Positions 38,201-56,667 of a stretch of DNA of 64,000 nucleotides are shown in pieces. How positions within the stretch are numbered: the first letter of the stretch is position 1; every line of letters starts with the position of its first letter. This stretch comes from Natronomonas marina (GTDB taxonomy: Archaea; Halobacteriota; Halobacteria; Halobacteriales; Haloarculaceae), in NCBI RefSeq assembly GCF_024298905.1, contig NZ_CP101154.1:1178001-1242000 (forward strand), written 5' to 3'. The position numbers were made by a program, and so were the translations under genes. The notes beneath the pieces were generated by a model that worked only from the letters and a program-made list of their open reading frames with translations, was not told the DNA's origin and did not search any database.

Positions 38201-38388
38201 ACGGGTGCCTCGGCGGCGACGCATATCAGTGGCCGGGTCCCCGGCGGCGGGGTCGGGATGGGGACGGAAAACCGACGGCGGCGGCCTCTCGGCGCCGGAG
38301 CGCCCGGCGGTCGAAGGTAGGACCGACGACCCGCCGGTGACCGTCGGTAACGCGTTCGAGAACGAACGACGGGAGAAGGCGACGGGAC

Positions 38389-38718
38389 CTACCGGGCCGC
38401 TCGGGGACCCTCGCGGGCGGCGCGTTTGGCCTCGAAGACGGCGCCGGCGGCGAGTTCCTGGGCCAGCGTCTCGGCAGTGGCGTCGTCCTCGTCGGGGTCG
38501 AACCCGGCCGAGACGACGGAGCCGGCGGGCGGCTGGACGGCGACGGTCGCCTGGAGACCGTCGGTGTTGCCGGATATCTCGGCGCCGACGACGAACTCGT
38601 CGGACAGCAGCGCGCGCGTCGAGGTGGCGACGTCGACCAGTTCCCGACGGAGGGCACGGCGGCTCTCGATTGAGGGCTCGGCCTCGGCGGGCCCGGCGTG
38701 GGGGGAGTTTCCGTGCAT
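38389..38718 (-). CDS. Haloarchaeal conserved protein (DUF5811-like)
   Basis: A 109-residue protein: '[21 protein letters not shown]' (first 21 in two parts), helix '[21 protein letters not shown]', a central beta pair '[20 protein letters not shown]', acidic '[22 protein letters not shown]', basic end '[14 protein letters not shown]'. It matches a haloarchaeal family of unknown role. It is separated from tmk by a 188-bp gap without a visible gene. Confidence 0.62.
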
Positions 38719-38791
38719 GTGGCTTGCCCGCTCTACATGGCAATCCGTTAAAAACCCGTCGGCTCGGGTGAGAGACGTACGCACACGGAGG

Positions 38792-39271
38792 TCACAGGAT
38801 CGGCGTACTCTCGCCGTAGACGGCGAGGACGACCGCGCTCGTGTACGCCTCGTCGTCGGCCGAAGCCGTGACCGTCCGCCGTCCCTCGACGTCGAAGTCC
38901 CAGTCGCGGAGCTTTCGGCCGGCGGCCAACCCCGCCTCGACGCGCGCCTCGACGGCCTCTGGGTCGGTCCCCGACGCCTCGTAGAAGATGCCGGGGCCGT
39001 CCGGTTCCCGCGACCAGCCGAGCGAAGCAACGGCCGGTCCCGGCTCGTCCGGTCCGACCGTGGCCCGCCCCTCGACGACGGTGAGACGCTCGCCGGCGGG
39101 GCCCAGGTCCGGCGCCTCGCCGACCGCCTCGACGGTCGCCGCCGCGGGGACGACCGACGAGACCGACACGAGGTTGTAGTCGTGGACGTTCGCCTCGGCG
39201 AGGGCGGCGTCATAGGAGGCCATCGCCGTCGACCCCGTCGCTGTGCCCCAGACGACGCGGATGAGTCCCAT
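38792..39271 (-). CDS. pdaD: Pyruvoyl-dependent arginine decarboxylase
   Basis: A 159-residue proenzyme that cleaves itself between S38 and S39 in 'NLVSVSSVVP' to make the pyruvoyl group, then decarboxylates arginine to agmatine in archaeal polyamine synthesis. Other family marks are the start 'RVVWGTATGSTAMASYDAALAEA' (in parts), 'VVEGRATVGPDEPGPAVASLGW', and the catalytic Glu in 'GIFYEASG'. Length fits the family. It probably stands alone; the gaps to both neighbours are about 70 bp. Confidence 0.93.
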   Translation of the reverse strand: MGLIRVVWGTATGSTAMASYDAALAEANVHDYNLVSVSSVVPAAATVEAVGEAPDLGPAGERLTVVEGRATVGPDEPGPAVASLGWSREPDGPGIFYEASGTDPEAVEARVEAGLAAGRKLRDWDFDVEGRRTVTASADDEAYTSAVVLAVYGESTPIL

Positions 39272-39345
39272 TACCCGGAGTTGGACGGCCGAGACATAAC
39301 CGCGTTTCGGAACGGTGGGGGAGCTAAAGCGGGGCGCCCCGTCGC

Positions 39346-39732
39346 TCAGCCGTCCTTCCGGAGCAGTCCGTCGATGCTCGCGGTCAGCACCGTCTCGCCG
39401 GTCTCGTTCGTGCAGACGACGCCGGCGGTGACCGCGTAGTCGTCGGCGCGTTCCTCGACGCGCTCGTGGGTCCACTCGCAGCGAATCCGCTCGCCGGTGT
39501 GGACGGGCCGGCGGAACTCGAGGTCCATCGTGTGGGCGAGCATCTCCAGATCGCCGCCGATCTTCGTCGGCAGCGTCGCCGTCAACAGGCCGTGGACGAG
39601 GAGTCTGCCCTCCGAATCCGGCTCGGTGTGCCGCGGCTGGGTGTCCCCCGAGAGGTCGGCGAACCGGCGGACCTCGTCGGTCGTGAACGTCCGCTCGAAC
39701 GTGTAGGTCTCGCCTTCTGTCGGTCGGCTCAC
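39346..39732 (-). CDS. MaoC-like hot-dog fold dehydratase/hydratase
   Basis: A 128-residue hot-dog protein with a GTG start (39732, 'VSRPTEGETYTFERTFTTDEV' with the first residue read as Met). The hydratase motif appears as 'FADLSGDTQPRHTEPDSEGRLLVHGLLTATLPTKIGG' (in parts): the catalytic Asp and His positions of MaoC are D30 and H35-like within 'SGDTQPRH', although the usual Asn after the Asp is replaced. It may act on enoyl-CoA or fatty-acyl substrates. A neighbouring aldo/keto reductase starts upstream on the same strand about 50 bp away. Confidence 0.75.
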   Translation of the reverse strand: MSRPTEGETYTFERTFTTDEVRRFADLSGDTQPRHTEPDSEGRLLVHGLLTATLPTKIGGDLEMLAHTMDLEFRRPVHTGERIRCEWTHERVEERADDYAVTAGVVCTNETGETVLTASIDGLLRKDG

Positions 39733-39784
39733 GCGGGAGACCGTCCCCGGTCCGGGCGCCGACCCGGTGGGCGGTCGGGCACGG

Positions 39785-40843
39785 TCAGGTCCCGGCCGAC
39801 TCCTTCTCGAGACCGGCGGCCTCGATGTCCTCGCCGCCGACCGACGACCGCAGCGCGTCCATGCCGTCGTCGCGCTCGATGCCGAAGTCGTCGGCGTACA
39901 GCCCCTGGACCCGCTCGTACTCGGCGTCGGAGAGCGGCGGCACCCCGCTCGCGGCGGCCCACTCGTCGATGTCCTCGCGGGTCCGGAACGTCGGCGTGAC
40001 CGTCGCCACCTCGTCGTGGTACAGCAGCCACTGGAGGCTGGCCTGCGCCATCGTTCGCTGGCCATCCCCTTCGAGGAACCGAAGCGCCTCGATCTTCTCC
40101 CAGCCGGACTCGTACCACTCGTCGGGCCGGTAGGCGCGGTGGTCGCCCTCGCCGAGTTCCGTCTCGGGGGTGACCTGCTCGTTCAAGAGCCCCGAGGAGT
40201 GCGGCACCCGCGGGATCAGGCTCGTCGAGGAGCCGGTCCGCTCGATGGTGTCGAGGAAGTGGTTGCCGACCTCCTGTTCCAGCAGGTTCCACACCAGCTG
40301 GACGGCGTCGAACTCCTCCTCGATGGCGAGGTCGCCCTCCGCGAGCCAGCCGATGGAGGGACCGAGCGCCAGCCCGATTGCGTCGGCACGGCCGGACTCG
40401 CGGACCTCGTCGAGGAACTCCAGCACCTCGGCGTCCATCTCCTCGGCGTTGGCGTTGTGCAACTGCAGCACGTCGACCCGCTCCATGCCGAGGCGGTCCA
40501 GCGACTTCTCGAAGGCCTCCTCGAGGTAGTCGCGGTGCATCTCCTTGGGCAACTCGCCGTGGCCCGCCTGCGGGTTGTCGTAGAAGTCGTAGCCAATCTT
40601 CGTGGCGACGGTGACCTCCTCGCGCATCTCGGCGAGCGCCTCCCCGACCAGTTCCTCCGAGCGGCCGTGGCCGTAGACATCGCCGGTGTCGAAGTAGGTG
40701 ATGCCCTGGTCGACCGCGTACTGCAGCATCTCCTTGGCCTGTGACTCGCTGCGGTCGCCCCACCAGTCGGTGCCGACGACCCACGCGCCGAAGCCGATCT
40801 CGGAGACCTCCACGCCGGAGTCGCCCAGCGTCCGGTAGTTCAT
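39785..40843 (-). CDS. Aldo/keto reductase
   Basis: A 352-residue TIM-barrel NADPH-dependent oxidoreductase. The catalytic tetrad is visible as Asp and Tyr in 'GITYFDTGDVYGHGRSEELV', Lys in 'VTVATKIGYDFYD', and His in 'VDVLQLHNANAEE'. The NADP site is near 'QRTMAQASLQWLLYHDEVATVTPTFR' (in parts). I chose ATG 40843 ('MNYRTLGDSGVEVSEIGFG'), the standard family start; an in-frame ATG 33 bp upstream adds 'AKCFNALPPG' and is less likely. An insertion around 'VPHSSGLLNEQVTPETELGEGDH' is longer than in most members. Substrate unknown. Confidence 0.9.
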   Translation of the reverse strand: MNYRTLGDSGVEVSEIGFGAWVVGTDWWGDRSESQAKEMLQYAVDQGITYFDTGDVYGHGRSEELVGEALAEMREEVTVATKIGYDFYDNPQAGHGELPKEMHRDYLEEAFEKSLDRLGMERVDVLQLHNANAEEMDAEVLEFLDEVRESGRADAIGLALGPSIGWLAEGDLAIEEEFDAVQLVWNLLEQEVGNHFLDTIERTGSSTSLIPRVPHSSGLLNEQVTPETELGEGDHRAYRPDEWYESGWEKIEALRFLEGDGQRTMAQASLQWLLYHDEVATVTPTFRTREDIDEWAAASGVPPLSDAEYERVQGLYADDFGIERDDGMDALRSSVGGEDIEAAGLEKESAGT

Positions 40844-40907
40844 GCCCGGCGGTAGGGCGTTGAAGCACTTAGCCATCGGGGTTCGGTCCCGGCCCGCAGG
40901 AGCGGGA

Positions 40908-42989
40908 TCAGGCGACCGTCTCGCCCGTCCGCCAGGCGTCGACCACGTCCCGGAGCAGGCCGGTCTCGATGTCGCCGGCCCGCCAGTCGTCGACCGCCTG
41001 CCGGAGACCGGCGTTCTGCACGACGTCGCTCTCGCCGGCGTAGTCGTCGAGACTCGGGCCGACGTCCTTCTGGACGGTCTCGGTGGCGGTGTAGCCGGCG
41101 GCGTTCGACCACCCCTGGTCGCCGGTCGCCGACGCGGTGACGGTCAGGGTGCCGTCGGCGAGCGTCGTGGCGTTGACCGTCACGTTCGTCGTCCCGTCGG
41201 TCGTGTCGGTCGGCGCCGTCGCCGTGACGGTGTCGCCGACCCCGTCCTCGAAGCGGACCGTCACGTCTCCGGGTTTCGGTTCGGCGCCGAAGGCGACGGT
41301 GACGGACACGGCGTCGACCGACTCGTTGTCGACGGGGCCGGCCACGGAGACGTTCCGGGGGTTCTGCGGCGGGACGGCCAGCGCCGCGTCGGTCAGGCCG
41401 TACCCGACCGCGTCGTTCGGGTACGAACCGTAGTTCTCGCCGTCGGGGGCGACGGCGGTTTCGACGACGCGGTCCTGCAGGCCGGCGCCCGTCGCGGAGG
41501 CGTTGGCGCCGTGGACGAGCGCCGCCGCGCCGGCGGCGTGGGGCGCCGCTGCCGAGGTGCCGGCGAACCCGTTCTGGCCGTAGGCCTCCGTCGAGACCCG
41601 CGCCGGGGCGACGATTTCCGGCTTGAGACGCCCGTCGATGGTCGGCCCCCGCGAGGAGTACGGCTCCAGGGTCTCCGTGTCCCAGTAGACGGCGCCGACG
41701 GCAATGCCCCGTTTCGTCGTCGCCGGCGGCGTCACGCTCCGCTCGACGGTGCTGTACTCGAGGTCGATGCCGTCGCTGGTGAAGAGGTCGAAGTCGGCGG
41801 TCCCGTCGGCGTTCTCGCGGTGGATGGCCAGACAGTAGTCGTGGACGCCGGACTCCTGGGGCGAGTAGGACACTTGCTCTCGGGGTCGGACGCTGTTGTC
41901 CGGGGACTGGGCGTTGTTCGAGAACGCCACGCGCTCGAACGCGCCGCTGGTGTCGTCGTACTTCAGGAGTTCGAGGGCGTACCGCTGGTCGGAGGTGGGC
42001 CAGTCGTTCCACTGCAGCGTCGCCTCGACGAACCCGGCCGCCTGGAAGTCGTTGCACTCGTCGGCGTCGGCGCCCGGATCGGAGAACTCCAGCAGATCGT
42101 CGCCGTCCTCGTCGCGCCACTGGCCGTGCCAGTGCTGACCGTCGCCCTCGTTGCCCGAGGAGACGAACCAGGCCGTCCCGCTCTCGACCCCGTCGTCTAT
42201 CTCCTGGTCGAACACCGAGGTGCCGTCGTTCGGGACGCCGCCCTTGAAGCCCAGCGACATCCCGACGGCGTCGACATCCTCGTGGGCGTTGACCCACTCC
42301 ATGGCGTTCAACAGCTGTAGCCCCGTCTCGGCGGTCACGAGGATCAGGTCGGCGTCGGGCGCGACGTCGACGACGATCTCGCCGACGGCGTCGCCGTGTG
42401 AGGTCGGGATGTACGGCGGCCCCTCGATGCCCTCGCCGCTGAAATCCTTCGTCTCGACGACGTTGTCGGCGATGGGCGGGTGGTCAGGGTCGAAGCCGAG
42501 GTCGATGAGCGCCACCGTCGCGCCGTCACCTGTCGCGTTCCGGTCGGCGGCGACGTTGGCCCGGATCGTCTCGACGCCCTCGCTGGTCAACTCGGCCTGC
42601 TCGGGCCGCAGCGGTGTCCGCACGAACGCCACGGCGGGTTCCTCGCCGAGCGACTCGATGCGGTCCCGCGGCACCGTGGCCTGTATCAGATTGCCGTGGT
42701 GGGCCTCGACGGTTCCGCGGTCGGCGGCGGCGTCGGCGGCCTCGTCGCCGCGACCCGCCGTGGCCTCGACGACGACCCGGATCCCGTCGGTGTCGCCGGA
42801 CTCGGCCGCCACGCTCCCGTCGCCGGCCAGGAGGCCGTGTTCGACGTTCGGATGGCCGGTGCTGTTGACGCCCGGTACGTCGGACCCGCCGTCGGCACCC
42901 GAGGCGCCGGCGACGACCAGCCCACCGGCAGCGACGCCGAGAACCGCCACGACGACCACCGTGAGTAGCAGCGATCTGCGTTCGTTCAT
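40908..42989 (-). CDS. Secreted subtilisin-like serine protease (S8)
   Basis: A 693-residue exported protease. A hydrophobic signal (about 7 to 30) is followed by a propeptide-like domain (about 70 to 125). The catalytic domain has D163 ('VALIDLGFDPDH'), H198 ('PTSHGDAVGEIVVDV'), oxyanion N280 ('FVSSGNEG') and S479 ('GFAGTSAAAPHAAGAAAL'). A large insertion (about 285 to 420) separates the oxyanion Asn from the Ser segment. Beta-sandwich and dockerin-like C-terminal regions follow, ending with 'AVDDWRAGDIETGLLRDVVDAWRTG'. Its ATG overlaps the stop of the small upstream gene by 4 bp. Confidence 0.92.
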   Translation of the reverse strand: MNERRSLLLTVVVVAVLGVAAGGLVVAGASGADGGSDVPGVNSTGHPNVEHGLLAGDGSVAAESGDTDGIRVVVEATAGRGDEAADAAADRGTVEAHHGNLIQATVPRDRIESLGEEPAVAFVRTPLRPEQAELTSEGVETIRANVAADRNATGDGATVALIDLGFDPDHPPIADNVVETKDFSGEGIEGPPYIPTSHGDAVGEIVVDVAPDADLILVTAETGLQLLNAMEWVNAHEDVDAVGMSLGFKGGVPNDGTSVFDQEIDDGVESGTAWFVSSGNEGDGQHWHGQWRDEDGDDLLEFSDPGADADECNDFQAAGFVEATLQWNDWPTSDQRYALELLKYDDTSGAFERVAFSNNAQSPDNSVRPREQVSYSPQESGVHDYCLAIHRENADGTADFDLFTSDGIDLEYSTVERSVTPPATTKRGIAVGAVYWDTETLEPYSSRGPTIDGRLKPEIVAPARVSTEAYGQNGFAGTSAAAPHAAGAAALVHGANASATGAGLQDRVVETAVAPDGENYGSYPNDAVGYGLTDAALAVPPQNPRNVSVAGPVDNESVDAVSVTVAFGAEPKPGDVTVRFEDGVGDTVTATAPTDTTDGTTNVTVNATTLADGTLTVTASATGDQGWSNAAGYTATETVQKDVGPSLDDYAGESDVVQNAGLRQAVDDWRAGDIETGLLRDVVDAWRTGETVA

Positions 42990-43378
42990 CTGTCGGGGTG
43001 TCGGTGAGGAACCTCGGGTCGGTCGACGTAGCTGACCGACGGTGCTTCGGCGAGCGGGAGCAGTTCGTCCACCGCGACGGTGGCTTCGAGACGATCCTCG
43101 AAGCGTGCCCCGACCGTTTCGAGGCGGTCCTCGGGTGCCGACGCGCCCGCCGCGAGGCGTACCTCGACGGCGACGGTTCCCTCCTCGACGTCGAGACCGT
43201 GGCGACGGGCGTACGCCGCCGCGTCGTCGGCCCTCGACAGGCCGTACAGCGTCGACTCGAGCGACGGGTGCGAACCGCCGTCCGCGACGGTACCCCCTCG
43301 CGTCCCCCTCTCGTCCCCGCGACGGTCGCCCCGACGCACGTCACTCGGTGCCCGCTCGTCTCCCCGGATTCCTGTCAT
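42986..43378 (-). CDS. Small protein with subtilase-propeptide (I9)-like domain
   Basis: A 130-residue protein translated immediately before the subtilase (stop overlaps its ATG). The N-terminal half is Arg/Gly-rich and disordered. The C-terminal half (about 68 to 127: 'VAVEVRLAAGASAPEDRLETVG', 'FEDRLEATVAVDELLPLAEAP', 'SVSYVDRPE') follows the same beta-alpha-beta pattern as the subtilase's own prodomain ('RVVVEATAGRGDEAADAAADRG', 'LIQATVPRDRIESLGEEPAV', 'AFVRTP'). Such domains fold and inhibit subtilases. No signal peptide is visible, so it may act inside the cell before export. The function is inferred from this similarity and the gene order. Confidence 0.65.
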   Translation of the reverse strand: MTGIRGDERAPSDVRRGDRRGDERGTRGGTVADGGSHPSLESTLYGLSRADDAAAYARRHGLDVEEGTVAVEVRLAAGASAPEDRLETVGARFEDRLEATVAVDELLPLAEAPSVSYVDRPEVPHRHPDR

Positions 43379-43542
43379 GTTTGGTTCCCCCCACGAATCG
43401 ATACTCCACGTATGGGAAACTCCGAGTAAAAATCCACCGACGGTGTCGGGGCTCGATGCGGGCCGCGAGCGGTCCCCGCCGTCGGTCGTGTGCCGGTCGC
43501 ACAACAGCAATCCCTAACACTGCGGGTCCCTTGCGGGACGGT

Positions 43543-44442
43543 ATGACGAAGCGCCACGTCTCGCTGCCGCCGGAGGCCGAGGAGGGACTCGAGGAGTTCC
43601 TCGGGCAGGTCGACCGTCGGCTGGCAAGCGAGGAAGACACCTGCGAGGTCGTCGAGGACGTGCTCGTCGACCTCCACGGCGACCGGGACGCCTACGAGCG
43701 GTGGCAGGCCGGCGAGGCGGTCTCGCCGGCCGAACGGGTCCGACTCCAGGGGTACGACCCCTGCAACGCGACGCTGGAGAGCGAGTACTACGCCGAGAAG
43801 GACGAGGACGCCTTCGAGGACTCCAAACACCTCCAGTGGCTCTGGCGGCAGTTCGACGCGACGCCAATGGCCGACAACGTCGAGTTCGCGCTCCGGTTCC
43901 GCCGGATGCTCGCGGATCACCTCTTCGCGGAGTGCGGCGAGAACTGTCGGTTCTTCAAGGGCATCACGTTCACCTACGGCCACAACATCTCCGTCGGCGA
44001 CAACGTGATCGTCCACGACGACGTCCACCTCGACGACCGCGGGAAACTCACCGTCGGCAATCGCGTCTCCATCTCCGACGGCGTCCACGTCTACAGCCAC
44101 GACCACGACGTCGTCGACCAGACTCACGTCGAGAACTTCCACACCGTCGTCGAGGACGACGCCCGCCTCACCTACGACTCGATGGTCCGGGCGGGCGTGA
44201 AGGTCGGCGAGAACGCCATCCTCGGGGCCCGCGCGGTCGCCCAGTCGGACGTGCCGGCCCACCATGTCGCCGTCGGGACGCCCGCAAAGAGTGTCCGCGT
44301 GAAACCGGGCTGGGAGTCGGTCGCCGAACCCCTCGACGGCGACCACCCCGACGGCCGCGACGAGCGCCGCCTCCCCTACGAGGTGCCCGACGACATCGAC
44401 GTCTTCGACGAGTTCGGGCGCGACCGGGCGCCACCGGAGTGA
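43543..44442 (+). CDS. Left-handed beta-helix acyltransferase (maltose O-acetyltransferase-like)
   Basis: A 299-residue protein. A helical N-terminus (about 1 to 120) is followed by hexapeptide-repeat beta-helix from about 140 to 250: 'GHNISVGDNVIVHDDVHLDDRG', 'LTVGNRVSISDGVHVYSHDH', 'VRAGVKVGENAILGARAVAQSDV', ending 'VAVGTPAKSVRVKPGWES'. The catalytic His lies in 'VHVYSHDHDVV'. It should transfer acetyl or acyl groups to a sugar or similar acceptor from acyl-CoA. ATG 43543 is used; an upstream in-frame extension is antisense to a different gene. No sugar operon is nearby. Confidence 0.85.
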   Translation: MTKRHVSLPPEAEEGLEEFLGQVDRRLASEEDTCEVVEDVLVDLHGDRDAYERWQAGEAVSPAERVRLQGYDPCNATLESEYYAEKDEDAFEDSKHLQWLWRQFDATPMADNVEFALRFRRMLADHLFAECGENCRFFKGITFTYGHNISVGDNVIVHDDVHLDDRGKLTVGNRVSISDGVHVYSHDHDVVDQTHVENFHTVVEDDARLTYDSMVRAGVKVGENAILGARAVAQSDVPAHHVAVGTPAKSVRVKPGWESVAEPLDGDHPDGRDERRLPYEVPDDIDVFDEFGRDRAPPE

Positions 44443-44443
44443 G

Positions 44444-45757
44444 TCAGGTCGCCCGGCGGTGCCGGTAGCCCTCCCAGGCGAGGCCACCGGCGGCACCCAG
44501 GCCGACCAGAATCGCCACCAGCCCGTAGACCCCGACCCACTGCGGCAGGACGAACCCGACCCAGGAGTCAGCGACGGCGATGGCGCCGCTCAGGCCGCCG
44601 TGGTCGGTGCCCTCGAGGTTCCCGCCCGGCGGGACCGACTCCGGTTCCTCCCCGAGATTGCGGTCGGGACCGATGCGGTCGGCGTCGTAGACGATGCCCC
44701 GCCGACCGGACATGTCGTGGGCCCAGACGACCTCGCCGTCGGCGTTGACCTCCAGCACCCGGAAGTTCCGGGAGTCGACGACCAGCGTGTTCCCGTTCGG
44801 CATCCGGTCGGCGTCCCGGGGCCACTGGAGCCGGTCGTCGGCGCTCGGCCCCTCGTAGCGCCACACCTCCTCCATCGTCTCCGCGTCGTACTCGACGATG
44901 CGGTTGTTCTCGCTGTCGGCGACGATGAGGTTGTCGTGGGCCTCGAGGTAATTGGGGTCGTGCTGTTCGTACATGATGCTGTGGTTGCCCGGTTCGCCGT
45001 ACACCTCGACGATGTCGTCGGTGTCGGGGTCGACCTCGACGACGACGTCGAAGTTCCTGATGGACATCAGGAAGTTGCCGTTCTCGAGGCGGTCGACATC
45101 GTTCATGTGGGTCCAGTCCTGTCTCGGCCCGGTGTAGGCGTGGTCCTCGCGGGAGGTGCCCTCGACGTGTTCGGCCCAGAACTCGCTGCCCTCGTCGAGG
45201 TGCTCCTTGGCGGACCACTCCCAGGTCACCGTCCCGTTGCGGGCGACCGTGAACGTCCGGTGCCGCGCCATGTCGATGATGACCGTCTCGCCGCTCTCGA
45301 GGCGGTCGGCGTCGTGGACCTCGTGGTAGGAGATCTGCCGGTCGTACCAGTCGTACTCCCAGACCACCTCGTTCGTGTCGGGGTCGACCTCCTGGACCCG
45401 GTTGTGCACGCAGTGGTCGCCGGTGGTGTTGGCCCACCGCTCCGGACAGTCGGGGTCCGGAACCTTCTGGCCGAAGGAGACCATCACGTTGCCGTTGTCG
45501 AGCATCTCGGCGTCGAAGACGGCGGCGTTGCCCGGGGCGTACTCCCAGACGCGCTCGCCCGAGCGGTCGACGATGAAGACGTCGCCGTTGTGGTTGCCGA
45601 ACCAGCCGTACGCCTGCACCGACACGAGCGTCTTCCCCGGGTACGGTTCGTCACCCTCGGCCTCGACGGCGTCGTCGGCCGTCACCGCGAGACCGCCGAG
45701 GACGCCGACCGAAAGCAGGAGGAGCACGCCCAGGACGACGACGCGCTGTTGTCGCAT
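44444..45757 (-). CDS. Membrane-anchored arylsulfotransferase (ASST-like) protein
   Basis: A 437-residue protein with a signal anchor (residues about 5 to 28) and a C-terminal helix (about 404 to 428), so it should face outside with both ends in the membrane. Between them lies a beta-propeller with repeated 'NGNVMVS', 'SGETVIIDM', 'NGNFLMSIRN', 'NGNTLVVDSRN' turns and 'GTVTWEWSA'-type Trp blades, as in arylsulfate sulfotransferase and arylsulfotransferase families. The catalytic His of ASST is best matched in 'QISYHEVHDADRLE'. A propeller of unknown ligand is the safe call. Confidence 0.75.
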   Translation of the reverse strand: MRQQRVVVLGVLLLLSVGVLGGLAVTADDAVEAEGDEPYPGKTLVSVQAYGWFGNHNGDVFIVDRSGERVWEYAPGNAAVFDAEMLDNGNVMVSFGQKVPDPDCPERWANTTGDHCVHNRVQEVDPDTNEVVWEYDWYDRQISYHEVHDADRLESGETVIIDMARHRTFTVARNGTVTWEWSAKEHLDEGSEFWAEHVEGTSREDHAYTGPRQDWTHMNDVDRLENGNFLMSIRNFDVVVEVDPDTDDIVEVYGEPGNHSIMYEQHDPNYLEAHDNLIVADSENNRIVEYDAETMEEVWRYEGPSADDRLQWPRDADRMPNGNTLVVDSRNFRVLEVNADGEVVWAHDMSGRRGIVYDADRIGPDRNLGEEPESVPPGGNLEGTDHGGLSGAIAVADSWVGFVLPQWVGVYGLVAILVGLGAAGGLAWEGYRHRRAT

Positions 45758-45857
45758 TGGTGCGGCACAGGCGGCGGAGCACAAAACCGTTGCTGGTTCG
45801 GGACCGGCCATCGCCCCCAGTGGAAGCCGTTTTCCTGCCGGCGCTCGAACTCGGGGC

Positions 45858-46580
45858 ATGCGGAGCGTCGCCATCAACGTCGGTGCGAACACGAACGAAC
45901 CCGGGTTCCGGGGGCCCATCCACGGGGACGGCCGCTTCGAGTACGTCCCCATCCCCGAGTCGGAACCGACCCGTGAGGACGCCGCCGTCCCGACCTACGG
46001 CGATCTCGACCTCACAATCGACGCGAGTTCGGTCGCCGACCGGCCCGTCCACCTGGACCCGACCTTCGCGGGCGTCCACGGCTGTGACCGCTACACCTAC
46101 GGCGACCCCCACGGGGTGAAGGCACGCCCGCTGCTGGAACTGTCGGCCGGCGACCACGTCTTCTTCTACGCCACGCTCTCGACGGTCGGCGACACTCCCG
46201 CCGACTGGATAGCGCCGGAGTGGGGCGCCTACGTCATCGGGCAGTTCCGGCTGGCACGGGACCCCCTGACGCCCGAGGCGTACCGGAACCTCCCGGCCGA
46301 CGAGCGGGCGATATTCGAGACGAACGCCCACCGCAAGCGAGCGACCTTCGACGCCGAGGTGCTGCTGTACGGCGACGACGCCGACTCGGGACTGTACGAA
46401 CGGGCCGTCCCGCTGTCGAGTCGAAGCGCCGGCGTCGACGCCAACCGCCTCGTCACGGAGCTGTCCAGCGACTCCGGGAAGGGGCCGTGGTGGCGCCGGC
46501 CGATGACCTTCGACCGGGACGGGACCGAAGAACTGCTGGCGATACGCGAGTCGGACGACCGGGAACGAGCCGTCGAGTGA
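45858..46580 (+). CDS. Putative Nmad3-type nucleotide-modification-associated protein
   Basis: A 240-residue protein: start 'MRSVAINVGANTNEPGFRGP', then 'HGDGRFEYVPIPESEPTRE', 'LDLTIDASSVADRPVHLDPTF', 'GVHGCDRYTYGDPHGVKARPLLEL', 'DHVFFYATLSTVGDTPADW' and 'GAYVIGQFRL'. The layout (N-terminal GAN-, FEY-IPE and YGD motifs) matches proteins called Nmad3, predicted to take part in base modification in DNA. In haloarchaea these often stand alone. No methyltransferase or restriction gene is adjacent, and the prediction itself is untested. It could be any Rossmann-like ligand protein. Confidence 0.5.
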   Translation: MRSVAINVGANTNEPGFRGPIHGDGRFEYVPIPESEPTREDAAVPTYGDLDLTIDASSVADRPVHLDPTFAGVHGCDRYTYGDPHGVKARPLLELSAGDHVFFYATLSTVGDTPADWIAPEWGAYVIGQFRLARDPLTPEAYRNLPADERAIFETNAHRKRATFDAEVLLYGDDADSGLYERAVPLSSRSAGVDANRLVTELSSDSGKGPWWRRPMTFDRDGTEELLAIRESDDRERAVE

Positions 46581-46586
46581 CCGCGC

Positions 46587-47105
46587 TCAGAGCCGAATCG
46601 TCGTGTCGTCGCCGTCGTCGGACTCGTCGAGTCCTTCGAGCGCCCGGCGGAAGACCAGCCCCAGCGCGAGGTGCTGTCCCATCGCGTCCTCGAGTCGCTG
46701 CCGGGCGGCGTCGCCGTCGTCGATGCTGTACTCCTTCGTCTGGACGAGTTCGTGGACCGACAGCAGGCCCCCCTCCTCGAGGTCGTGCAGCACCGGATAC
46801 ACCGTCCCCGGACTCAGATCGACCCCGAAGAACCGCTCGAGGTCCTCCATGACGCCCTTGCCGTGGGTCTCGCTGCGCCGCAATTCGACGAGCGCCGTCA
46901 GGAGGTTCGGCAGCGACTCCTTGACCAGGCCCTCCTCGATGGAGAGGGAGTCGCCGTCGTACAGCGTCGCCGCCGTCTCCTCGACGACCGCCTCGGTGCG
47001 GGCCGCAGGCTCGGCGTCCCCGTCCTCGCCCCCGCCGCCGAGTCCGTTCATCTCGCTCACGAGGCTCTGCAGCGTCTCCTCCGTTCCCGGTCGCGTGTCG
47101 GTCAT
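46587..47105 (-). CDS. PadR-family transcriptional regulator
   Basis: A 172-residue regulator with a disordered acidic N-terminus (about 1 to 58). A PadR winged helix follows ('LPNLLTALVELRRSETHGKGVMEDLERFFGVDLSPGTVYPVLHDLEEGGLL' in parts), then a C-terminal helix with 'EYSIDDGDAARQRLEDAM'. Members repress genes for stress, phenolic acids or export. ATG 47105 starts the acidic tail; the longer frame upstream is Arg-rich noise. Converges on the Nmad3-like gene 6 bp away. Confidence 0.85.
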   Translation of the reverse strand: MTDTRPGTEETLQSLVSEMNGLGGGGEDGDAEPAARTEAVVEETAATLYDGDSLSIEEGLVKESLPNLLTALVELRRSETHGKGVMEDLERFFGVDLSPGTVYPVLHDLEEGGLLSVHELVQTKEYSIDDGDAARQRLEDAMGQHLALGLVFRRALEGLDESDDGDDTTIRL

Positions 47106-47396
47106 CGTAATCGACACGTCAAGCGGAATCGTCTTAAAGGCCCGCGAACGTCCAGCGACTCGGCCGGTCGTGAACGGTTTGAACGGTCTGAACGATACCC
47201 CCGACCGGCGCGCCGGCGGGCGAATCCGAGCGGGCCGTTCGGAACCGCCCCCGCCTTCGAGAGATGCGCTCGCGGCGTCCCTGCGGTCGCCGCTCGACAT
47301 GATCGAGGCGCTCCCGCTGGTCGCGCCTCGCAACTCACGGCTCGCTCCGCTCGCCGTTCGTTTCGCACGCGGCGTTCACTGCGTTCACGCCGCGCA
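47106..47396. other. Gap at the island edge, low-complexity CGCTCG-type sequence
   Basis: No gene seen. It holds short repeated CGCTCG/CGTTCACTGCGTTCACG-type strings and weak inverted repeats between PadR and the tRNA-Gly fragment, typical of haloarchaeal intergenic filler. The first bases upstream of 47105 presumably carry the padR promoter. Confidence 0.5.
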
Positions 47397-47440
47397 TGCG
47401 CCGTCCGGGAATTGAACCCGGGCTAGTGGCTTGGGAAGCC
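47397..47440 (-). other. tRNA-Gly(CCC) 3' half, probable attachment-site scar
   Basis: On the minus strand this reads as the anticodon loop and 3' half of a haloarchaeal tRNA-Gly: TTCCCAA (anticodon CCC), then variable region, T arm CCGGG-TTCAATT-CCCGG and acceptor strand ACGGCGC with discriminator A. No matching 5' half (acceptor GCGCCGT plus D arm) occurs upstream, where the sequence codes for something else. This is what site-specific integration into a tRNA 3' end leaves at one border. The intact tRNA should lie at the other border at a higher coordinate. Confidence 0.6.
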
Positions 47441-47683
47441 CCGCCGTTGCGAACGACGGGTATCCGCATACCCCTCGAATCTCCTCGCCATATCCCGGGT
47501 TTTGGCCTGCTTCAGCCCTGATTTGCGGCGCTTGACATATAAAAACCCGGGAGCGTGGCGCTGGGACACTACCGATTCGGACGAAGACGGCAGCTGGGCT
47601 TCGGAACTGGAAACAGTGGATACCCTATAGGGATCTCCAGAATGCTCTGTTGAATAGCGGTGCTGGCGTGGAGGGTCGGACAT
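47423..47683 (-). CDS. Short ORF ending inside the tRNA-Gly fragment (possible integrase or element remnant)
   Basis: An 86-residue frame. The last about 38 residues are strongly basic ('LKQAKTRDMARRFEGYADTR', then 'RSQRRGFPSH') and end at a TAG inside the tRNA-Gly 3' half, so the final codons are made of tRNA sequence. Genes that run into an att site in this way are usually the integrase of the element, but I see no Arg-His-Arg-Tyr motif. The N-terminal half overlaps MITE copy 1 and is probably not native. It is most likely a remnant. Confidence 0.3.
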   Translation of the reverse strand: MSDPPRQHRYSTEHSGDPYRVSTVSSSEAQLPSSSESVVSQRHAPGFLYVKRRKSGLKQAKTRDMARRFEGYADTRRSQRRGFPSH

Positions 47684-47770
47684 TGAGTCGGCTTGTAAGC
47701 AGGTGCTGCGAGTGATTTCAAAATTGAGTTCGGTTCACCTCGGCTCAGAGGCCGCTATTCAACACAGCAG
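47643..47770. mobile_element. 128-bp MITE, copy 1
   Basis: A non-coding element, identical base for base to 53927 to 54054. Its terminal inverted repeats of about 18 bp read TGCT(C/G)TGTTGAATAGCGG from both ends. They are nearly the same as the ends of the IS at 48154 to 49084 (CTGCCGTGTTGAATAG), which would supply the transposase in trans. No clear target duplication here. Confidence 0.88.
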
Positions 47771-47832
47771 CTGCGACTGTAGAGTAAATGAAGGCGTACC
47801 AACTCACCGCTTCGAGCGGACGGTATCGACCG

Positions 47833-48153: not shown

Positions 48154-49084
48154 CTGCCGTGTTGAATAGATGCTGAGTCGCGGTTAGAGTGGCTCACAGA
48201 GCGGTTCTATGTTCGAGACGGCGAACATCAGGACGATTTCACGGAACTGTCGATACCAGCCGAGCGCTCGCACGGCATCGCCGAGCGAGCGCTTCGTTGT
48301 CGAATACGAAGTCTCGGCCATCCAGCGCTGAGAATAGCCTTTTGTCCGGATGAGAGCGTTATGTCCCACCGTCAACGGTCTCGATCCACGCTGTAAAATT
48401 AGTGGCTCGACACCGAGCGCGTAGAACTCGTATTTCGTGATCCAGTTGTGGAACGCTTTGTCAGCAGCCACGGACAGCAGGTCGTCCGCGTTCCGGCGGA
48501 CGACCCGCGGCCCGGTCTTCGTATCGTGTTTCCACCGGGCTGAGATATGTACGTCAAGGACGGCAAGAGACTCTCTGTCGGTTAATGTCGTCACTTTTAG
48601 TGTTTGAACGTTACTTCCCGACCGCTGGCGATAGTACGACGAGGCCGAGCGGCGGTCGAAGAACGTACTATCGAGTGCTGCGTGTCCGGACTGCGGGTGC
48701 TGCTGCGCTGAAACGCGCAGCAGCGCCCGCCACACCCACATTTTCAGCCGGTCGAACGATTTGTAGATCGTGCTGTAGTCCGGCAGATCGTCCCGATCTA
48801 AGTCGAGTACGTCACGAATCTCGGCGATATACTCCAGCCGATTCGGCGTTTCGCGGTAGCTGTGGTCTTCTTCGAGCCGAAAACAGTGCAGAACGACGTG
48901 TTTCCAGCGGGCGAACCCGCCGCTGGCGGGCTCGCCCGCGTGCTTCCCCAACGCTTGTTTGACTAGGTGCCGACACTGCTCAACGAAGTCGAGGAGATCG
49001 ACTTCCATGGACAGAATCGATTTCCTCGGCTTCGCCCTTCTACTCCGCGATATAAGCGGATTAGATCGCTATTCAACACGGCAG
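48154..49084. mobile_element. Complete insertion sequence, IS5-type by gene content
   Basis: A 931-bp element with one transposase gene. Both ends begin (TT)CTGCCGTGTTGAATAG when read inward (48154 onward and 49084 backward), giving inverted repeats of about 16 to 18 bp. The flanks (AAAATT and AAATAG) do not form a clean target duplication, so it may be old or recombined. Its ends explain the mobility of the two MITEs. Confidence 0.85.
48184..49008 (-). CDS. DDE transposase of the 931-bp IS
   Basis: A 274-residue intact transposase typical of haloarchaeal IS5-like elements. It has N-terminal helices 'DFVEQCRHLVKQALGKHAG', then the DDE core with D in 'GHAALDSTFFDRRSASSYY', D in 'SVAADKAFHNWI', and the C-terminal region 'YSQRWMAETSYSTTKRSLGDAVRALGWYRQFREIVL' (in parts) with the Glu of the triad in 'AETSYS'. 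No frameshift is seen, so it may be active. The gene fills almost the whole element. Confidence 0.9.
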   Translation of the reverse strand: MEVDLLDFVEQCRHLVKQALGKHAGEPASGGFARWKHVVLHCFRLEEDHSYRETPNRLEYIAEIRDVLDLDRDDLPDYSTIYKSFDRLKMWVWRALLRVSAQQHPQSGHAALDSTFFDRRSASSYYRQRSGSNVQTLKVTTLTDRESLAVLDVHISARWKHDTKTGPRVVRRNADDLLSVAADKAFHNWITKYEFYALGVEPLILQRGSRPLTVGHNALIRTKGYSQRWMAETSYSTTKRSLGDAVRALGWYRQFREIVLMFAVSNIEPLCEPL

Positions 49085-50471: not shown

Positions 50472-51866
50472 TCACGTGTTGCAATAAGTTGTGTACTCTG
50501 AATCAAATTTTTCTGAAGGCGGTTGTTGAAATTGTGAATTCGCATCTTTCGATTCATAAGGATTTTTCAAGACATTCAATAAATCCTTGAATTTAGAGAG
50601 ATTTTCTTTTTCTAGATACTCATTTAGTGCCTCTTCTATCAAGTAGTTGCGGGGAATATAACGGGGATTAGTTTTCTTCATCATCTTCCTATCCAAGCCG
50701 ATACCAGATAATTCATTTCGGATATGTTTGAAATCTTCAGATGAATAGACTGGGTCATCAAAGGAGCCAGGAGTTTCTAATTCTATGAATGTATTCGTGT
50801 AGTCTGCTCTAGATTCACGAAGCCAGTCTAAGAATGCATCTACTATTGCTTCCTCTCCGTCTGATTTGATCCCTAGTTTCTTTCTCATCATACTATAGTA
50901 TTTAGCATCGAATATTTCTTCAAAATTGTCTAGCTTGGCTTCTAGTTCATCAAAAGCGTGAGATGATTCTTGAAAAAGCTGTTTTAGGGATTCTGCGAAA
51001 CGTCCAAGATTCCATTTCAAAATAGGTTTTTGATTCCCGAAAGAGTATCTACCTCTTTTGTCCACAGAGCTGAAGACAGCATCTTCGTCGTAATAATTCA
51101 TGAATGTACATGGTCCGTAATCAAATGTTTCCCCATCTATACTCATGTTGTCTGTATTCATGACGCCGTGTATGAATCCTACACGCATCCAGTCAACTAC
51201 CATATTTATAGAAGATCGCATAACTTCATCAAAAAAATCTGTGTATTTTTTATCCTTGTTATTCAAGTGAGGATAGTGCCTGTCGATTACATAATCAGTG
51301 AATTCCTCAAGTTCTTCAGATGCTTGACTTGCCACATATTGGAAAGTGCCGTATCTAATGTGGCTTCTCATCACTCTTACAAGGATGGCTCCGGGTTCTG
51401 TTCTACGTCTCTGAACTGATCCGTCGGTCTCGATTACTGCCAGACTCCTAGATGTTTTTATACCAAGATTTTGCATCGCGTATGAGTAAATATACTCTCT
51501 GAGCATGGAACTAACAGTTGCGTTCCCATCGCCTCTTCCGGAGTACGGCGTTCGACCAGACCCTTTCAGTTGAATATCGTATCTATTACCATCGTGCACA
51601 TGTTCGCCTAGTATCATCGCTCTTCCGTCGCCAAGTACAGTATAACTTCCAAATTGATGTCCTGCATATGCTTGAGCAATCGGTTCTTCCAGAAGTTTTT
51701 GCCCTGAAAGAATCTGACTGTTCAAATCCTCTTTATTTAATCCAAGGCCATCACACAAATCTTCATTAAGAAGTAAAATCTCCGGATTATTGATATCTTC
51801 AGGCGTCACTCTCGAATAGAGGTTGGAGTCCAAATCTTTGTACGTTGTGTCAAAGGAAAGGGACAT
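50472..51866 (-). CDS. selO: SelO/YdiU family protein adenylyltransferase, AT-rich
   Basis: A 464-residue pseudokinase-fold AMPylase that transfers AMP to Ser, Thr or Tyr of redox proteins. Motifs are 'YAGHQFG' (67 to 73), 'QLKGSGRTPYSGRGDG' (99 to 114), and the catalytic 'MNTDNMSIDGETFDYGP' with D239, N240 and D249 in the positions required for metal and catalysis. C462 near the end ('YTTYCNT') sits at the place of the selenocysteine of some homologues. The gene is AT-rich with A/T third positions and many Lys, Asn and Ile codons, unlike everything around it. This points to recent transfer, perhaps from a low-GC organism. TATA-like TTATTAAAA lies about 30 bp upstream of its ATG. Confidence 0.92.
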   Translation of the reverse strand: MSLSFDTTYKDLDSNLYSRVTPEDINNPEILLLNEDLCDGLGLNKEDLNSQILSGQKLLEEPIAQAYAGHQFGSYTVLGDGRAMILGEHVHDGNRYDIQLKGSGRTPYSGRGDGNATVSSMLREYIYSYAMQNLGIKTSRSLAVIETDGSVQRRRTEPGAILVRVMRSHIRYGTFQYVASQASEELEEFTDYVIDRHYPHLNNKDKKYTDFFDEVMRSSINMVVDWMRVGFIHGVMNTDNMSIDGETFDYGPCTFMNYYDEDAVFSSVDKRGRYSFGNQKPILKWNLGRFAESLKQLFQESSHAFDELEAKLDNFEEIFDAKYYSMMRKKLGIKSDGEEAIVDAFLDWLRESRADYTNTFIELETPGSFDDPVYSSEDFKHIRNELSGIGLDRKMMKKTNPRYIPRNYLIEEALNEYLEKENLSKFKDLLNVLKNPYESKDANSQFQQPPSEKFDSEYTTYCNT

Positions 51867-52429: not shown

Positions 52430-53572
52430 ATGAGCACCTGCGGGACCCTACGGCTGGCGACGAGGGGATCCGACCTCGCCCAGCGACAGGCGGCAATCGT
52501 CAAGGAAGCCCTCGAGGATCGCCGATACGAGGTCCAACTCGTCGAAGTCGAAACTCGCGGCGATCAACTCAGAGACGAACTCATCCATCGGCTCGGGAAG
52601 ACCGGTGCCTTCGTCCGCGCGCTCGATGAGGAATTTCTTGAGGACGAACTCGACGGGGCGATTCATTCGATGAAGGACATGCCGACCGAACAGCCCGAGG
52701 AGCTAACTGTCGCCGGCATCCCCAAACGGGCATCGCCCGAGGATGTCCTCATTTCTCCCGACGGTTACGACCTCGAGACACTCCCAGAAGGGGCACGCGT
52801 TGGGACCGCCAGCCTCCGACGGCGTGCCCAGTTGCTCGCCAGACGGTCGGATCTCGATGTCGAACCACTCCGGGGGAACATCGATACCCGCATCGAGAAA
52901 CTCCTCGCGCCACACCTCCAGGCCGAACACCAGGCACGACTCGACGCCAAGGAGGACGAGGCCATCGAGAGCGAGGGCGAGAATACGGACGGAACACAAA
53001 CGGCGACCGCCGGCGCGATCGATGACAATCTCACCGTCGACGAGTGGTTCAACGATCTCGCCGAGATCGAACGGCGGGCGATGGAACGGACCGTCGAGAC
53101 CGAGTTCGACGCGATCGTTCTCGCGGCCGCCGGTATCGAACGGAGCGGGTTCGATCGACACCTCGAGTACGTCACACTGCCGCCGCGGACAGTCGCGCCG
53201 GCCCCCGGCCAGGGTGCCATCGCCGTCACGGCCCTCGATGACAGTGACGCCAGCGAGGCGATTCACGACGCTGTCGATCATCCCCGGACAAGAATCGAGA
53301 CGACGACGGAACGCGTGATCCTCGGGACCCTCGGGGGTGGCTGTATCGCACCGATCGGGGTCTATGCGATCGTCGAGAGCAACTTCGTCCACGTCGTCGT
53401 GCAGGTGTATAGCCAGGACGGCGAGGAATCGGTAACGGCGAGCCGCGATCTCTCGACCAAACAGTACGTCAAGCAGGCCAGCGCGTTCGCCGATGATCTC
53501 GCAGACCGGGGTGCCGCCGAGCTTATCGACGCCGCCGACACGACACGCGACCGGGACGTCTACGATGAGTGA
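52430..53572 (+). CDS. hemC: Hydroxymethylbilane synthase (porphobilinogen deaminase)
   Basis: A 380-residue enzyme joining four porphobilinogens on the way to siroheme, heme and corrins. The N-terminus 'LRLATRGSDLAQRQAAIVKEAL' is diagnostic. Catalytic D83 lies in 'IHSMKDMPTEQPEELTVAG', and the dipyrromethane cofactor Cys is C305 in 'LGGGCIAPIGVYAI'. A charged insertion around 160 to 222 ('LQAEHQARLDAKEDEAIESE' and onward) lengthens it to 380, as in other haloarchaea. Its stop overlaps a decayed cobA gene that normally follows it. All family residues are kept, so it may be functional. Confidence 0.93.
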   Translation: MSTCGTLRLATRGSDLAQRQAAIVKEALEDRRYEVQLVEVETRGDQLRDELIHRLGKTGAFVRALDEEFLEDELDGAIHSMKDMPTEQPEELTVAGIPKRASPEDVLISPDGYDLETLPEGARVGTASLRRRAQLLARRSDLDVEPLRGNIDTRIEKLLAPHLQAEHQARLDAKEDEAIESEGENTDGTQTATAGAIDDNLTVDEWFNDLAEIERRAMERTVETEFDAIVLAAAGIERSGFDRHLEYVTLPPRTVAPAPGQGAIAVTALDDSDASEAIHDAVDHPRTRIETTTERVILGTLGGGCIAPIGVYAIVESNFVHVVVQVYSQDGEESVTASRDLSTKQYVKQASAFADDLADRGAAELIDAADTTRDRDVYDE

Positions 53573-53900
53573 GATGGATCAACCAGGGACTGTGTATCTC
53601 ATCGGAAGCGGTCCCGGTGAGCCGGAGCTGCTGACGGTTAAGGCCAAACGGCTGCTCGAAACGGCGGATATCGTCCTGCACGATAACCGGCCAGGCCCGG
53701 AAATCATCGAATAGATCCCCGGAGAAACGCGAGTACATCGGTAAGCGGGCCGGCAGCGATCGAACCCCCAATCGGTGAACAACGACCAGTTCGTCGCGCT
53801 GTCCCGTGCGGGCAAGACCGTCGTCGGATTCAGAGAGTGGCTTCGACCGCGTGTACGAGTACTCCTCGTCCGGGGCTACAGTATAGTTCACGACGGAGTT
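53565..53900 (+). pseudogene. cobA: Decayed uroporphyrinogen-III C-methyltransferase
   Basis: It starts normally ('MSEMDQPGTVYLIGSGPGEPELL' in parts, then 'KAKRLLETADIVLHD', the SUMT signature), overlapping the hemC stop. A stop codon at 53712 interrupts after 'NRPGPEIIE'. The next family pieces appear in shifted frames ('EYIGKRAGSDRTPN', then 'NNDQFVALSRAGKTVVG'). After that the homology fades and a MITE follows. The gene would make precorrin-2 with S-adenosylmethionine; it is now broken by at least one nonsense change and two frameshifts. Confidence 0.8.
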
Positions 53901-53926
53901 GGAACGTTCTGAATATCTGATTAGAC

Positions 53927-54054
53927 TGCTCTGTTGAATAGCGGTGCTGGCGTGGAGGGTCGGACATTGAGTCGGCTTGTAAGCAGGTGCTGCGAGTGAT
54001 TTCAAAATTGAGTTCGGTTCACCTCGGCTCAGAGGCCGCTATTCAACACAGCAG
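53927..54054. mobile_element. 128-bp MITE, copy 2
   Basis: Identical to 47643 to 47770. Here the flanks give a direct repeat, ATTAGAC(T), on both sides, the sort of 7 to 8 bp target duplication expected for this element type. It sits just beyond the decayed cobA gene, so it inserted after, or together with, the decay of the hemC operon. Confidence 0.88.
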
Positions 54055-54239
54055 ATTAGACTGCTCTCCTGTAGCGTAGCGGGACCAGATCAGGAGATCA
54101 GGGCATCCCCGTCGAGGTAAGGCCAAGTATGTCCGTGGAACTGCCCCGTCTTCAGTGGGGTGCACTACTGGTTCCGGCCACTTCCGCCAGCCTACCGAAG
54201 AACGAACACACAAGTATCGAGCGCGTCGAACGTATGGGC

Positions 54240-54593
54240 ATGGCATCATCACTTGCCGACGAAGCATGTGAGGCCTGTACATCAGAGGACGAACCGCTCA
54301 CAGAGGCAGAGTACGCCGAGTACCTAACTGAAATCGACGATGATGTCTGGGAAGTCGTTAATGACCATCATCTTGAAGCGGAGTATCCGTTCGAAGATTT
54401 CCGCGATGCACTTGAGTTCACGTACGAGATCGGGGAACTTGCTGAACAAGAGTGGCATCATCCAGATATCTCGCTTTAATGGGGCGAGGTGGGAGTCGAA
54501 ATGTGGACGCACAAAATCGACGGACTGCACAAAACCGACTTCGTAATGGCGGCGCGGATGGATCGGATTCACGAAGAATACGCTCCAGAGTAG
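54240..54593 (+). pseudogene. Pterin-4a-carbinolamine dehydratase with in-frame stop
   Basis: The frame from ATG 54240 ('[20 protein letters not shown]') reads the PCD/DCoH family: '[21 protein letters not shown]', '[24 protein letters not shown]', with the paired His of the active site. At 54477 a TAA occurs, but the same frame continues with the missing third of the family ('[20 protein letters not shown]', '[17 protein letters not shown]') to a TAG at 54591. So one nonsense codon splits an otherwise perfect gene. PCD recycles the pterin cofactor of phenylalanine hydroxylase. It could be a fresh pseudogene or a sequencing error; readthrough is possible but unproven. Confidence 0.85.
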
Positions 54594-54873
54594 CCTGCAC
54601 CGATCACAAATACTCACTTTCGACGGCGAAGCCGTCGCGGGACCGACGGTGATGCTCCGGCGGGTGGGGGTCTACCGGACGGACGCGCGACCCCACAGCG
54701 CCGCGGGCCTCGGCGAGGCCGGATCGGGGACCAGACCCGGCCGGGGGCCGCGTTGCTGTTCCACCCGAACATGCTCGAGTACTACGACACCCTTGACGAG
54801 TTCGAGGAGTGGATTGCCGAGAGAGCTCCCGTCTCGGTCGACATGCTCTTCGCACGGGGCGGCGTGGGCCTGA
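54594..54873. other. Non-coding or decayed region
   Basis: Scattered frames here look like the remains of a GC-rich gene ('MLEYYDTLDEFEEWIAERAP', 'SVDMLFARGGVGLINDADH' on the plus strand), but no intact start or family match is visible. I cannot name the ancestral gene. Confidence 0.35.
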
Positions 54874-56667
54874 TCAACGACGCCGATCATAGTAGTATTC
54901 TCTATTGGCTTTTTGTTCTCGGTCAAGTTGGCTGCCAGGCTTGTTGACTCGGGGACGTCCCGTGCGCTCATCGCGACGGAACGTAATCTCAAGCGATGAG
55001 AGAAACGTGTTCATCCCATCTCGTATCGATTGTGGTGCCTTCGCGTGCCCACGTTCTCCTGGGGTTCCTTCGAACACGACTAAGCGATCGGCGAATCGAT
55101 CAATTACGAAGAGATCGTGATCAACAACAAAAACCGGTTGATCAATTCGTTTGCTAAATTGATGAATCTGGTCAGCGAGGGACACACGCCGGTCAACGTC
55201 CAAAAACGCAGACGGCTCGTCGATGAGATACAGATCGGCATCGCGAGCGAGGCACAGTGCGACACCGACTCGCTGTAGTTCGCCGCCGGAGAGGGAATCG
55301 AGATGTCGGTCGTACAGCACCTCGAGATCGAACGGGTCTCGGATCCATGTTTTGAAGCGCCGGGAGTGGATGTCAGTAACCGCTGCGAACTGTTCGCGCA
55401 CTGTCGCCTGGCTATCCGGCGCTATGTACTGTGGTTTGTATGAGACAGAAAGAGTACCCGGAACAGCTCCGCTATCAGGTTCAATACCCCCTGCGAGTAG
55501 TTTCACGAACGTCGTCTTTCCGAGAGCGTTCTCTCCGACGATACCGATCGATTCACTCGCGTAAATCTGGCCTGAATCGACTGACAACGCGAATCCGGTG
55601 AATTCCTTCTGTAGTTCCGGGTATTCGAAGACTGGGTCCTTGTTGGGTAACCCACGCTCGCTGGCTGAAGGGAACTCGATAGCATCGCCGCGGATCTGAA
55701 CGTTCTCTTCGGCCAGGTATCCGTCCAGAAACTGATTGATACCTGCACGAACCGAGAGTCGCTGGGAGGCGACTCCGAAGCCACCCGGGGCCCCATACAA
55801 GATATGGACCCCGTCGGAGAGTAGGTCAAGCATCGCCAGATCGTGTTCGATGACGATCGCTGACGCATCGGTATCCTGAATACGTTCGTGGATTACGTGC
55901 GAAACAGTCGACCGCTGTTTGGCGTCTAGGAAGGACGACGGTTCGTCGAACAAGTAGAGGTCTGCATCGCTCAACAGCGTCGTTGCGATGGCGACACGCT
56001 GTCGTTCACCACCGGAGAGGTCACCTAGCGACCGGCCACTGATTGATTGGAGGCCAAGTGTATCGATGAGGTCATCGGGGTCGGTCGACCGCGAGAGCAG
56101 TCGTTGTCGAACCGTCTCGTCGTCCGTATCGGACAGTGAGTCGACTCGCTGGCTTTTGTAGGCCGTTGTAACCGTTCCGTCACGGAGCCGTTCGAGATGC
56201 GTCTGGAGAGTTGTCCCCCGAAACGATTCGACCGCCCTGTCCCAGTCGATCCGGTCTTGTGTTCCGAAGTTCGGAACCAACTCACCGGCCAAGATACGCA
56301 AGGCCGTGGTCTTCCCGATTCCGTTCCGGCCGAGGAGGCCGATAACCGCCCCATCGTCTGGAGCCGGGAGGTTATCCAGTCGAAATCCGTTTTCGGCGTA
56401 CTGGTGAACGAGCTGGCCTGTTTCGGACGGAAGCGGGACGATTCGAATCGCGTCGTTGGGAATTTTCTTTTCGATTAGCTTGTGCTCTCGCATCACCTTG
56501 CTCTCGTCGATGTGGAGTTCGCCATCATCGGTGATGTGAAAGCCCTCGTGTCCGGACCGATTCAACGGATCGTACTTGACTGCGATGTTCCGTACTTCGT
56601 CGGTGACTTCGTCTTGATCGATGATTGCGACGTATTCTTCGCTCTGTGAATCGGTGGGGGTGTTCAT
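54874..56667 (-). CDS. ABCE1/RLI paralogue lacking all Fe-S cysteines
   Basis: A 597-residue protein that matches ABCE1/RLI (ribosome-recycling ATPase) over its full length. Walker A sites are GRNGIGKT (113 to 120) and GENALGKT (378 to 385). Signatures are LSGGERQRV and LSGGELQRV, Walker B are 'LYLFDEPSSFLD' and 'LYLIDEPSAFLD', and H-loops are 'IVIEHDLAML' and 'FVVDHDLFVI'. It has the RLI C-terminus 'ITFRRDERTGRPRVNKPGSQ'. The N-terminal region (about 12 to 80), which in ABCE1 carries eight cysteines for two [4Fe-4S] clusters, is aligned by 'YVAIIDQDEVTDEV' and 'KKIPNDAIRIVPLP', but every cysteine is replaced (Val, Ala, Asp, Glu, Leu, Ile). Only one Cys remains in the whole protein. The start overlaps the upstream ThDP gene by 4 bp. 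It is intact, so a changed function is likelier than decay. Confidence 0.85.
   Translation of the reverse strand: MNTPTDSQSEEYVAIIDQDEVTDEVRNIAVKYDPLNRSGHEGFHITDDGELHIDESKVMREHKLIEKKIPNDAIRIVPLPSETGQLVHQYAENGFRLDNLPAPDDGAVIGLLGRNGIGKTTALRILAGELVPNFGTQDRIDWDRAVESFRGTTLQTHLERLRDGTVTTAYKSQRVDSLSDTDDETVRQRLLSRSTDPDDLIDTLGLQSISGRSLGDLSGGERQRVAIATTLLSDADLYLFDEPSSFLDAKQRSTVSHVIHERIQDTDASAIVIEHDLAMLDLLSDGVHILYGAPGGFGVASQRLSVRAGINQFLDGYLAEENVQIRGDAIEFPSASERGLPNKDPVFEYPELQKEFTGFALSVDSGQIYASESIGIVGENALGKTTFVKLLAGGIEPDSGAVPGTLSVSYKPQYIAPDSQATVREQFAAVTDIHSRRFKTWIRDPFDLEVLYDRHLDSLSGGELQRVGVALCLARDADLYLIDEPSAFLDVDRRVSLADQIHQFSKRIDQPVFVVDHDLFVIDRFADRLVVFEGTPGERGHAKAPQSIRDGMNTFLSSLEITFRRDERTGRPRVNKPGSQLDREQKANREYYYDRRR

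Follow-up and report, generated by a model that had tools for sequence, protein, structure and literature searches.

Genomic islands can be broken up by rearrangements of the host chromosome, as described for the vSaBeta island of Staphylococcus aureus OC8 that was split by a 1.04-Mb inversion mediated by IS256 (PMC5065196). In haloarchaea, an IS-mediated inversion of the chromosome is known from Haloferax volcanii (Hawkins et al. 2013, as cited in PMC6063281). Other archaeal chromosomes have undergone the TKV2/TKV3 inversion in Thermococcus kodakarensis or inversions through the pTN3 integrase in T. nautili (PMC8371274). The underlying principle is that recombination between two oppositely oriented sites on one molecule results in an inversion (PMC8371274).

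The locus of Natronomonas marina analysed here resembles vSaBeta in that an IS-bearing island has been cut in two by a distant, inverted copy of the IS, leaving IS flanks that are mismatched crosswise (PMC5065196). Unlike vSaBeta, which belongs to a bacterium and involves a different IS family, our case has an att pair and a crossed tnpB gene that prove the join, and the IS lacks a target duplication. The Haloferax volcanii case shares with ours the haloarchaeal host and a large inversion via two IS copies, but is not reported there to have split a tRNA-integrated element (PMC6063281). Similarly, the TKV2/TKV3 and pTN3 inversions are archaeal chromosome inversions linked to integrated elements, but there the elements themselves or a suicidal integrase recombine (PMC8371274), whereas our locus has IS copies as repeats and a classical, unsplit integrase. 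Integration into tRNA genes and the splitting of islands by IS-driven inversion are thus both already documented, and what we describe is a new, well-resolved haloarchaeal case.

A tRNA-Gly half at the island border

The window, i.e., the whole stretch of 64,000 nucleotides that was analysed, comprises C1:1,178,001-1,242,000 of a 3.99-Mb genome assembled in two contigs (positions without a contig prefix refer to the window). Its minus strand at 47396-47440 reads GGCTTCCCAAGCCACTAGCCCGGGTTCAATTCCCGGACGGCGCAT, which represents the 3' half of a tRNA-Gly(CCC), spanning the anticodon loop to the 3' end, with the 5' half missing. Over its 45 bases, this sequence shows no difference from the corresponding part of the intact tRNA-Gly(CCC) gene at C1:724,923-724,967, with the match ending abruptly on both sides, and an exact match of this length is far beyond what chance could produce. 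ARAGORN called a tRNA-Leu as the only tRNA of the window, which therefore contains no intact tRNA-Gly. At 47-48 kb, the G+C content drops sharply; it is about 0.69 up to this point and 0.40-0.63 beyond it.

The sole intact tRNA-Gly(CCC) of the genome is located at C1:724,896-724,966 on the plus strand, i.e., around 500 kb below the site in the window and on the opposite strand. Directly downstream of it lies a tyrosine recombinase gene (C1:725,172-726,275) with an intact frame of 367 amino acids that matches Pfam Phage_integrase and shares 49% identity with the integrases of HSTV-2 and HCTV-6 across 98% of its length. Its relatives in other haloarchaea are also found 3' of tRNA genes, namely tRNA-Gly(CCC) in loci L101 and L110 and tRNA-Glu in most others. 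The position of this gene and the habit of its relatives identify 724.9 kb as the integrase-proximal end of an integrated element. The two tRNA-Gly sequences thus form an att pair, with the intact gene marking one end and its identical 45-bp 3' part the other; they lie 500 kb from each other in inverted orientation, and 47396-47440 (minus strand) is the att site at the integrase-distal border of the island. We can rule out a suicidal (split) integrase, as the frame is whole; this is a classical, unsplit tyrosine recombinase.

The att core is followed by the right attachment arm of the element (47441-47527, minus strand), and core and arm together give a 132-bp match of 86% identity to locus L107 of Halobellus salinus. 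A first-pass annotation had recognized in this place a tRNA-Gly(CCC) reduced to its anticodon loop and 3' half as well as the border of an integrated island, and both readings are borne out by the 45/45 identity, the ARAGORN result, the G+C drop, and the att pair with an integrase at the intact gene. It had further described an open reading frame running into the tRNA half. This frame of 86 codons indeed exists (47423-47683, minus strand) and has its stop codon within the tRNA part, but its coding nature is doubtful because it has no Pfam match, its start falls inside a MITE-like repeat, and the aligned arm in L107 contains a stop codon after ...RDMA. For the same reasons, the idea that it represents the end of a gene of the element is unsupported, and it is probably a conserved attachment arm plus a MITE rather than a gene. 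The MITE-like repeat in question is 141 bp long (47639-47779) and has a second copy of 97% identity at 53923-54063. GTTGAATAG-type ends are also present near 48160, next to the DDE transposase gene of an IS (48184-49008, minus strand; Pfam DDE_Tnp_1), which is the likely source.

Inverted IS copies with crossed flanks

The two low-G+C pieces, one at 725 kb and one from 47.4 kb of the window onward, share an inverted stretch of 1,432 bp with 99.65% identity (C1:727,029-728,460 and 1,249,298-1,247,871). It contains copies of one IS that lie, in inverted orientation, at the inner edges of the pieces (C1:727,033-728,457 and 1,247,874-1,249,294), and a third full copy is found at 2,417,454. Comparison of the three copies placed the ends of the IS, which begins after a TTAG target and ends at GTTCAC. 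Judged by a TnpB-like frame and the lack of a target duplication, it appears to be an IS605/IS1341-type element encoding TnpB. The copy at C1:727,033-728,457 (L010) differs from the one at 1,247,874 by a 1-base and a 3-base change that break its tnpB frame, which is open in the latter.

On their outer sides, the two IS copies are flanked by the halves of a different tnpB gene, the N-terminal half next to one copy and the C-terminal half next to the other. When these flanks are joined crosswise and the IS is removed at its exact ends, the result is a single open tnpB frame whose length matches that of its relatives. In eight other loci, intact copies match the restored DNA at 75-88% identity without a break at the junction, and the restored protein aligns end to end with up to 91% identity. 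The genome itself holds no intact copy of this IS-interrupted tnpB, just the two halves. In contrast, uncrossed joins of the IS flanks give frames that stop after 20 or 9 codons. Restoration by crossed but not by uncrossed flanks is the expected outcome if inverted copies of an IS have recombined.

Crossing the inner flanks also keeps a frame open, which starts as the N-terminus of a second integrase with 75% identity to one in L101. Past the inner junction, however, this open frame is unlike an integrase, and we searched the 1,248-kb side for the remainder of that second integrase gene without finding it. An additional deletion beside the IS must therefore be assumed, and the inner join taken alone proves little.

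Proposed integration and inversion, and their order

We consider it very probable that the present arrangement arose by integration of an element into tRNA-Gly(CCC) and subsequent homologous recombination between two IS copies, which inverted around 519 kb and split the island. An element of ca. 25 kb would have entered the 3' half of the tRNA gene via its own tyrosine recombinase, so that the intact tRNA and the integrase marked one end and the duplicated 3' half the opposite one. Within the element, the IS would have occupied a TTAG site in or at the remnant of the second integrase gene, and another copy of the same IS would have resided in inverted orientation inside the chromosomal tnpB gene. 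Recombination between these copies would then have inverted about 519 kb so that the end with tRNA and integrase remained at 725 kb and the opposite one, together with most of the cargo, moved to 1,225-1,248 kb (the window from 47.4 kb onward). An inversion of this kind accounts for island ends that lie ca. 500 kb apart on opposite strands. The pieces present today add up to an element of roughly 26 kb including the IS, i.e., about 2 kb from the tRNA to the IS, the IS itself, and about 22.4 kb beyond.

Integration and inversion commute, and the end product alone would therefore fit either order; that homologous recombination was the inversion mechanism and that integration came first is what we infer. 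In the reverse order, a circular element would have entered by recombination of its IS with the one interrupting tnpB, and Int would then have joined attP to the attB in tRNA-Gly some 500 kb away. Since oppositely oriented sites on one molecule invert (PMC8371274), the inversion would in this case have been made by Int and not by homologous recombination. This course of events leads to the identical end product and agrees with the intact integrase frame, but it requires that homologous recombination brought the element in before its own integrase acted, whereas integration into a tRNA gene would be the ordinary first step; we regard it as unlikely.

An artefact of assembly, in which the 1.4-kb IS copies had caused reads to be misjoined and the element were in reality contiguous at tRNA-Gly, would explain why the breakpoints coincide exactly with repeats. 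However, an assembly of 4 Mb in two contigs suggests reads that span repeats of 1.4 kb, and the third IS copy and other repeats left the assembly unbroken, which makes such an error improbable.

Whichever recombination reaction came first, the att sites are now inverted, and excision of the element by its integrase would not be expected; by the established chemistry of tyrosine recombinases, the integrase could only invert the segment between them (PMC8371274). It seems improbable that the intact integrase and the two inverted, identical att sites make up a live switch in which Int flips about 500 kb and the IS pair about 519 kb, with the population consisting of several chromosome isomers in place of a fixed scar.

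Ancestral order and empty site in relatives

The reading of integration followed by IS-mediated inversion predicts a former neighbourhood that can be seen in related genomes. We compared the flank at 38.0-47.4 kb, read on the minus strand, and found that seven genomes of the same genus (G001, G002, G010, G011, G013, G016, and G018) are collinear in the order of upstream flank, tRNA-Gly(CCC), and window flank, where the first match to the window flank lies about 0.3 to 3 kb from the tRNA gene. The chromosomal flank at 38000-47395 had therefore adjoined tRNA-Gly(CCC) directly before integration and inversion. These seven relatives have no island between tRNA-Gly and the window flank and thus represent the empty site. 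The comparison with related genomes that the first-pass annotation had proposed hence turned out as it expected, with synteny of 47.4-64 kb being absent from these relatives. We also looked in relatives for the neighbouring outer flanks of the inversion and found no conserved neighbourhood, as the chromosome is too rearranged there.

Halobellus salinus (L107), whose integrase is 89% identical to ours, has an uninterrupted series of the right arm corresponding to 47441-47527, the tRNA 3' half, and the left arm together with the integrase. The two arms, which are separated by 500 kb in our genome, are thus neighbours around what appears to be a single attP-like core, which supports that they belong to one element. 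These sequences occupy L107 positions 4640-5000 in one piece inside a contig of 420 kb, an arrangement that reflects either tandem elements or a composite and no ordinary att end.

The relatives also bear on the view that the window harbours a separate element at 1,225 kb that merely contains a tRNA fragment and has nothing to do with the integrase at 725 kb. Fragments of tRNA genes do occur in mobile elements. However, all seven relatives have the window flank right after tRNA-Gly(CCC) and L107 joins both arms around one core, and we consider this explanation very improbable; an independent second integration site is ruled out by the same adjacency in relatives. Finally, the first-pass annotation had predicted a simple island whose intact tRNA-Gly would follow past 64 kb at a higher coordinate. 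This would agree with the way in which the 3' half is oriented and with the fall in G+C but can practically be dismissed, given that the only intact copy lies at 724.9 kb on the plus strand and that 1,221-1,321 kb, which includes the next 79 kb past the window, contains no tRNA. The geometry behind this prediction would have held before the inversion.

The tRNA-Gly(CCC) gene has probably served as an integration site more than once, because genome G012 (L121/L122) carries about 20 kb of different DNA between this gene and the conserved flank, and this insert begins with a 195-bp stretch that resembles the left arm of our element without an integrase. In G005 (L127:4759-6114), another species of the genus, tRNA-Gly(CCC) is immediately followed by a gene for a relative of the island's aldehyde dehydrogenase with 75% identity, a hint that elements using this integration site share cargo.

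Cargo of the island

The larger piece of the split island begins at 47441, fills the window to its end at 64000, and continues to C1:1,247,870, 5.9 kb past the window; its low G+C content, its Pfam matches, and its absence from the seven relatives set it apart. From 49.7 kb onward, Pfam indicates an Lrp/AsnC regulator, SelO, HemC, an ABCE1-like ATPase, a ThDP enzyme, an aldehyde dehydrogenase, and proteins of the MmgE/PrpD and ComA-like types. The cargo beyond the window (C1:1,241-1,247 kb included) comprises TFB, SufB, a ferredoxin, a partial 2-oxoacid:ferredoxin oxidoreductase beta subunit, and NifU. At 52430-56667 and C1:1,241-1,247 kb, the island carries genes that are relatives or second copies of housekeeping ones (HemC, ABCE1-like, TFB, SufB, ferredoxin, and NifU); the other HemC of the genome is encoded at C1:410.6-411.3 kb and the other ABCE1-like protein, with 47% identity, at C1:3,464.7 kb.

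The SelO gene (50472-51866) has about 40% G+C compared to about 58% in the rest of the island and about 69% in the chromosome, and this stretch was probably acquired separately and recently, from a donor that is only distantly related. The genes for the ThDP enzyme, aldehyde dehydrogenase, MmgE/PrpD protein, and a member of the ComA (phosphosulfolactate synthase) family lie side by side at 56664-62596 and possibly encode a sulfonate or carboxylate pathway. HSTV-2-like haloarchaeal tailed viruses have a similar integrase, but no virus structural gene was recognized among the island proteins scanned with Pfam, which covered a subset of the island ORFs with a general library.

Implications

An archaeal integrated element can be immobilized once an IS-mediated inversion carries one of its ends away, as it would no longer be excised and only inversion from att to att would be possible. 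Island callers that seek att pairs in direct orientation and at short range will miss islands split in this way. Conversely, an "orphan" tRNA half can mark an inversion of the chromosome.
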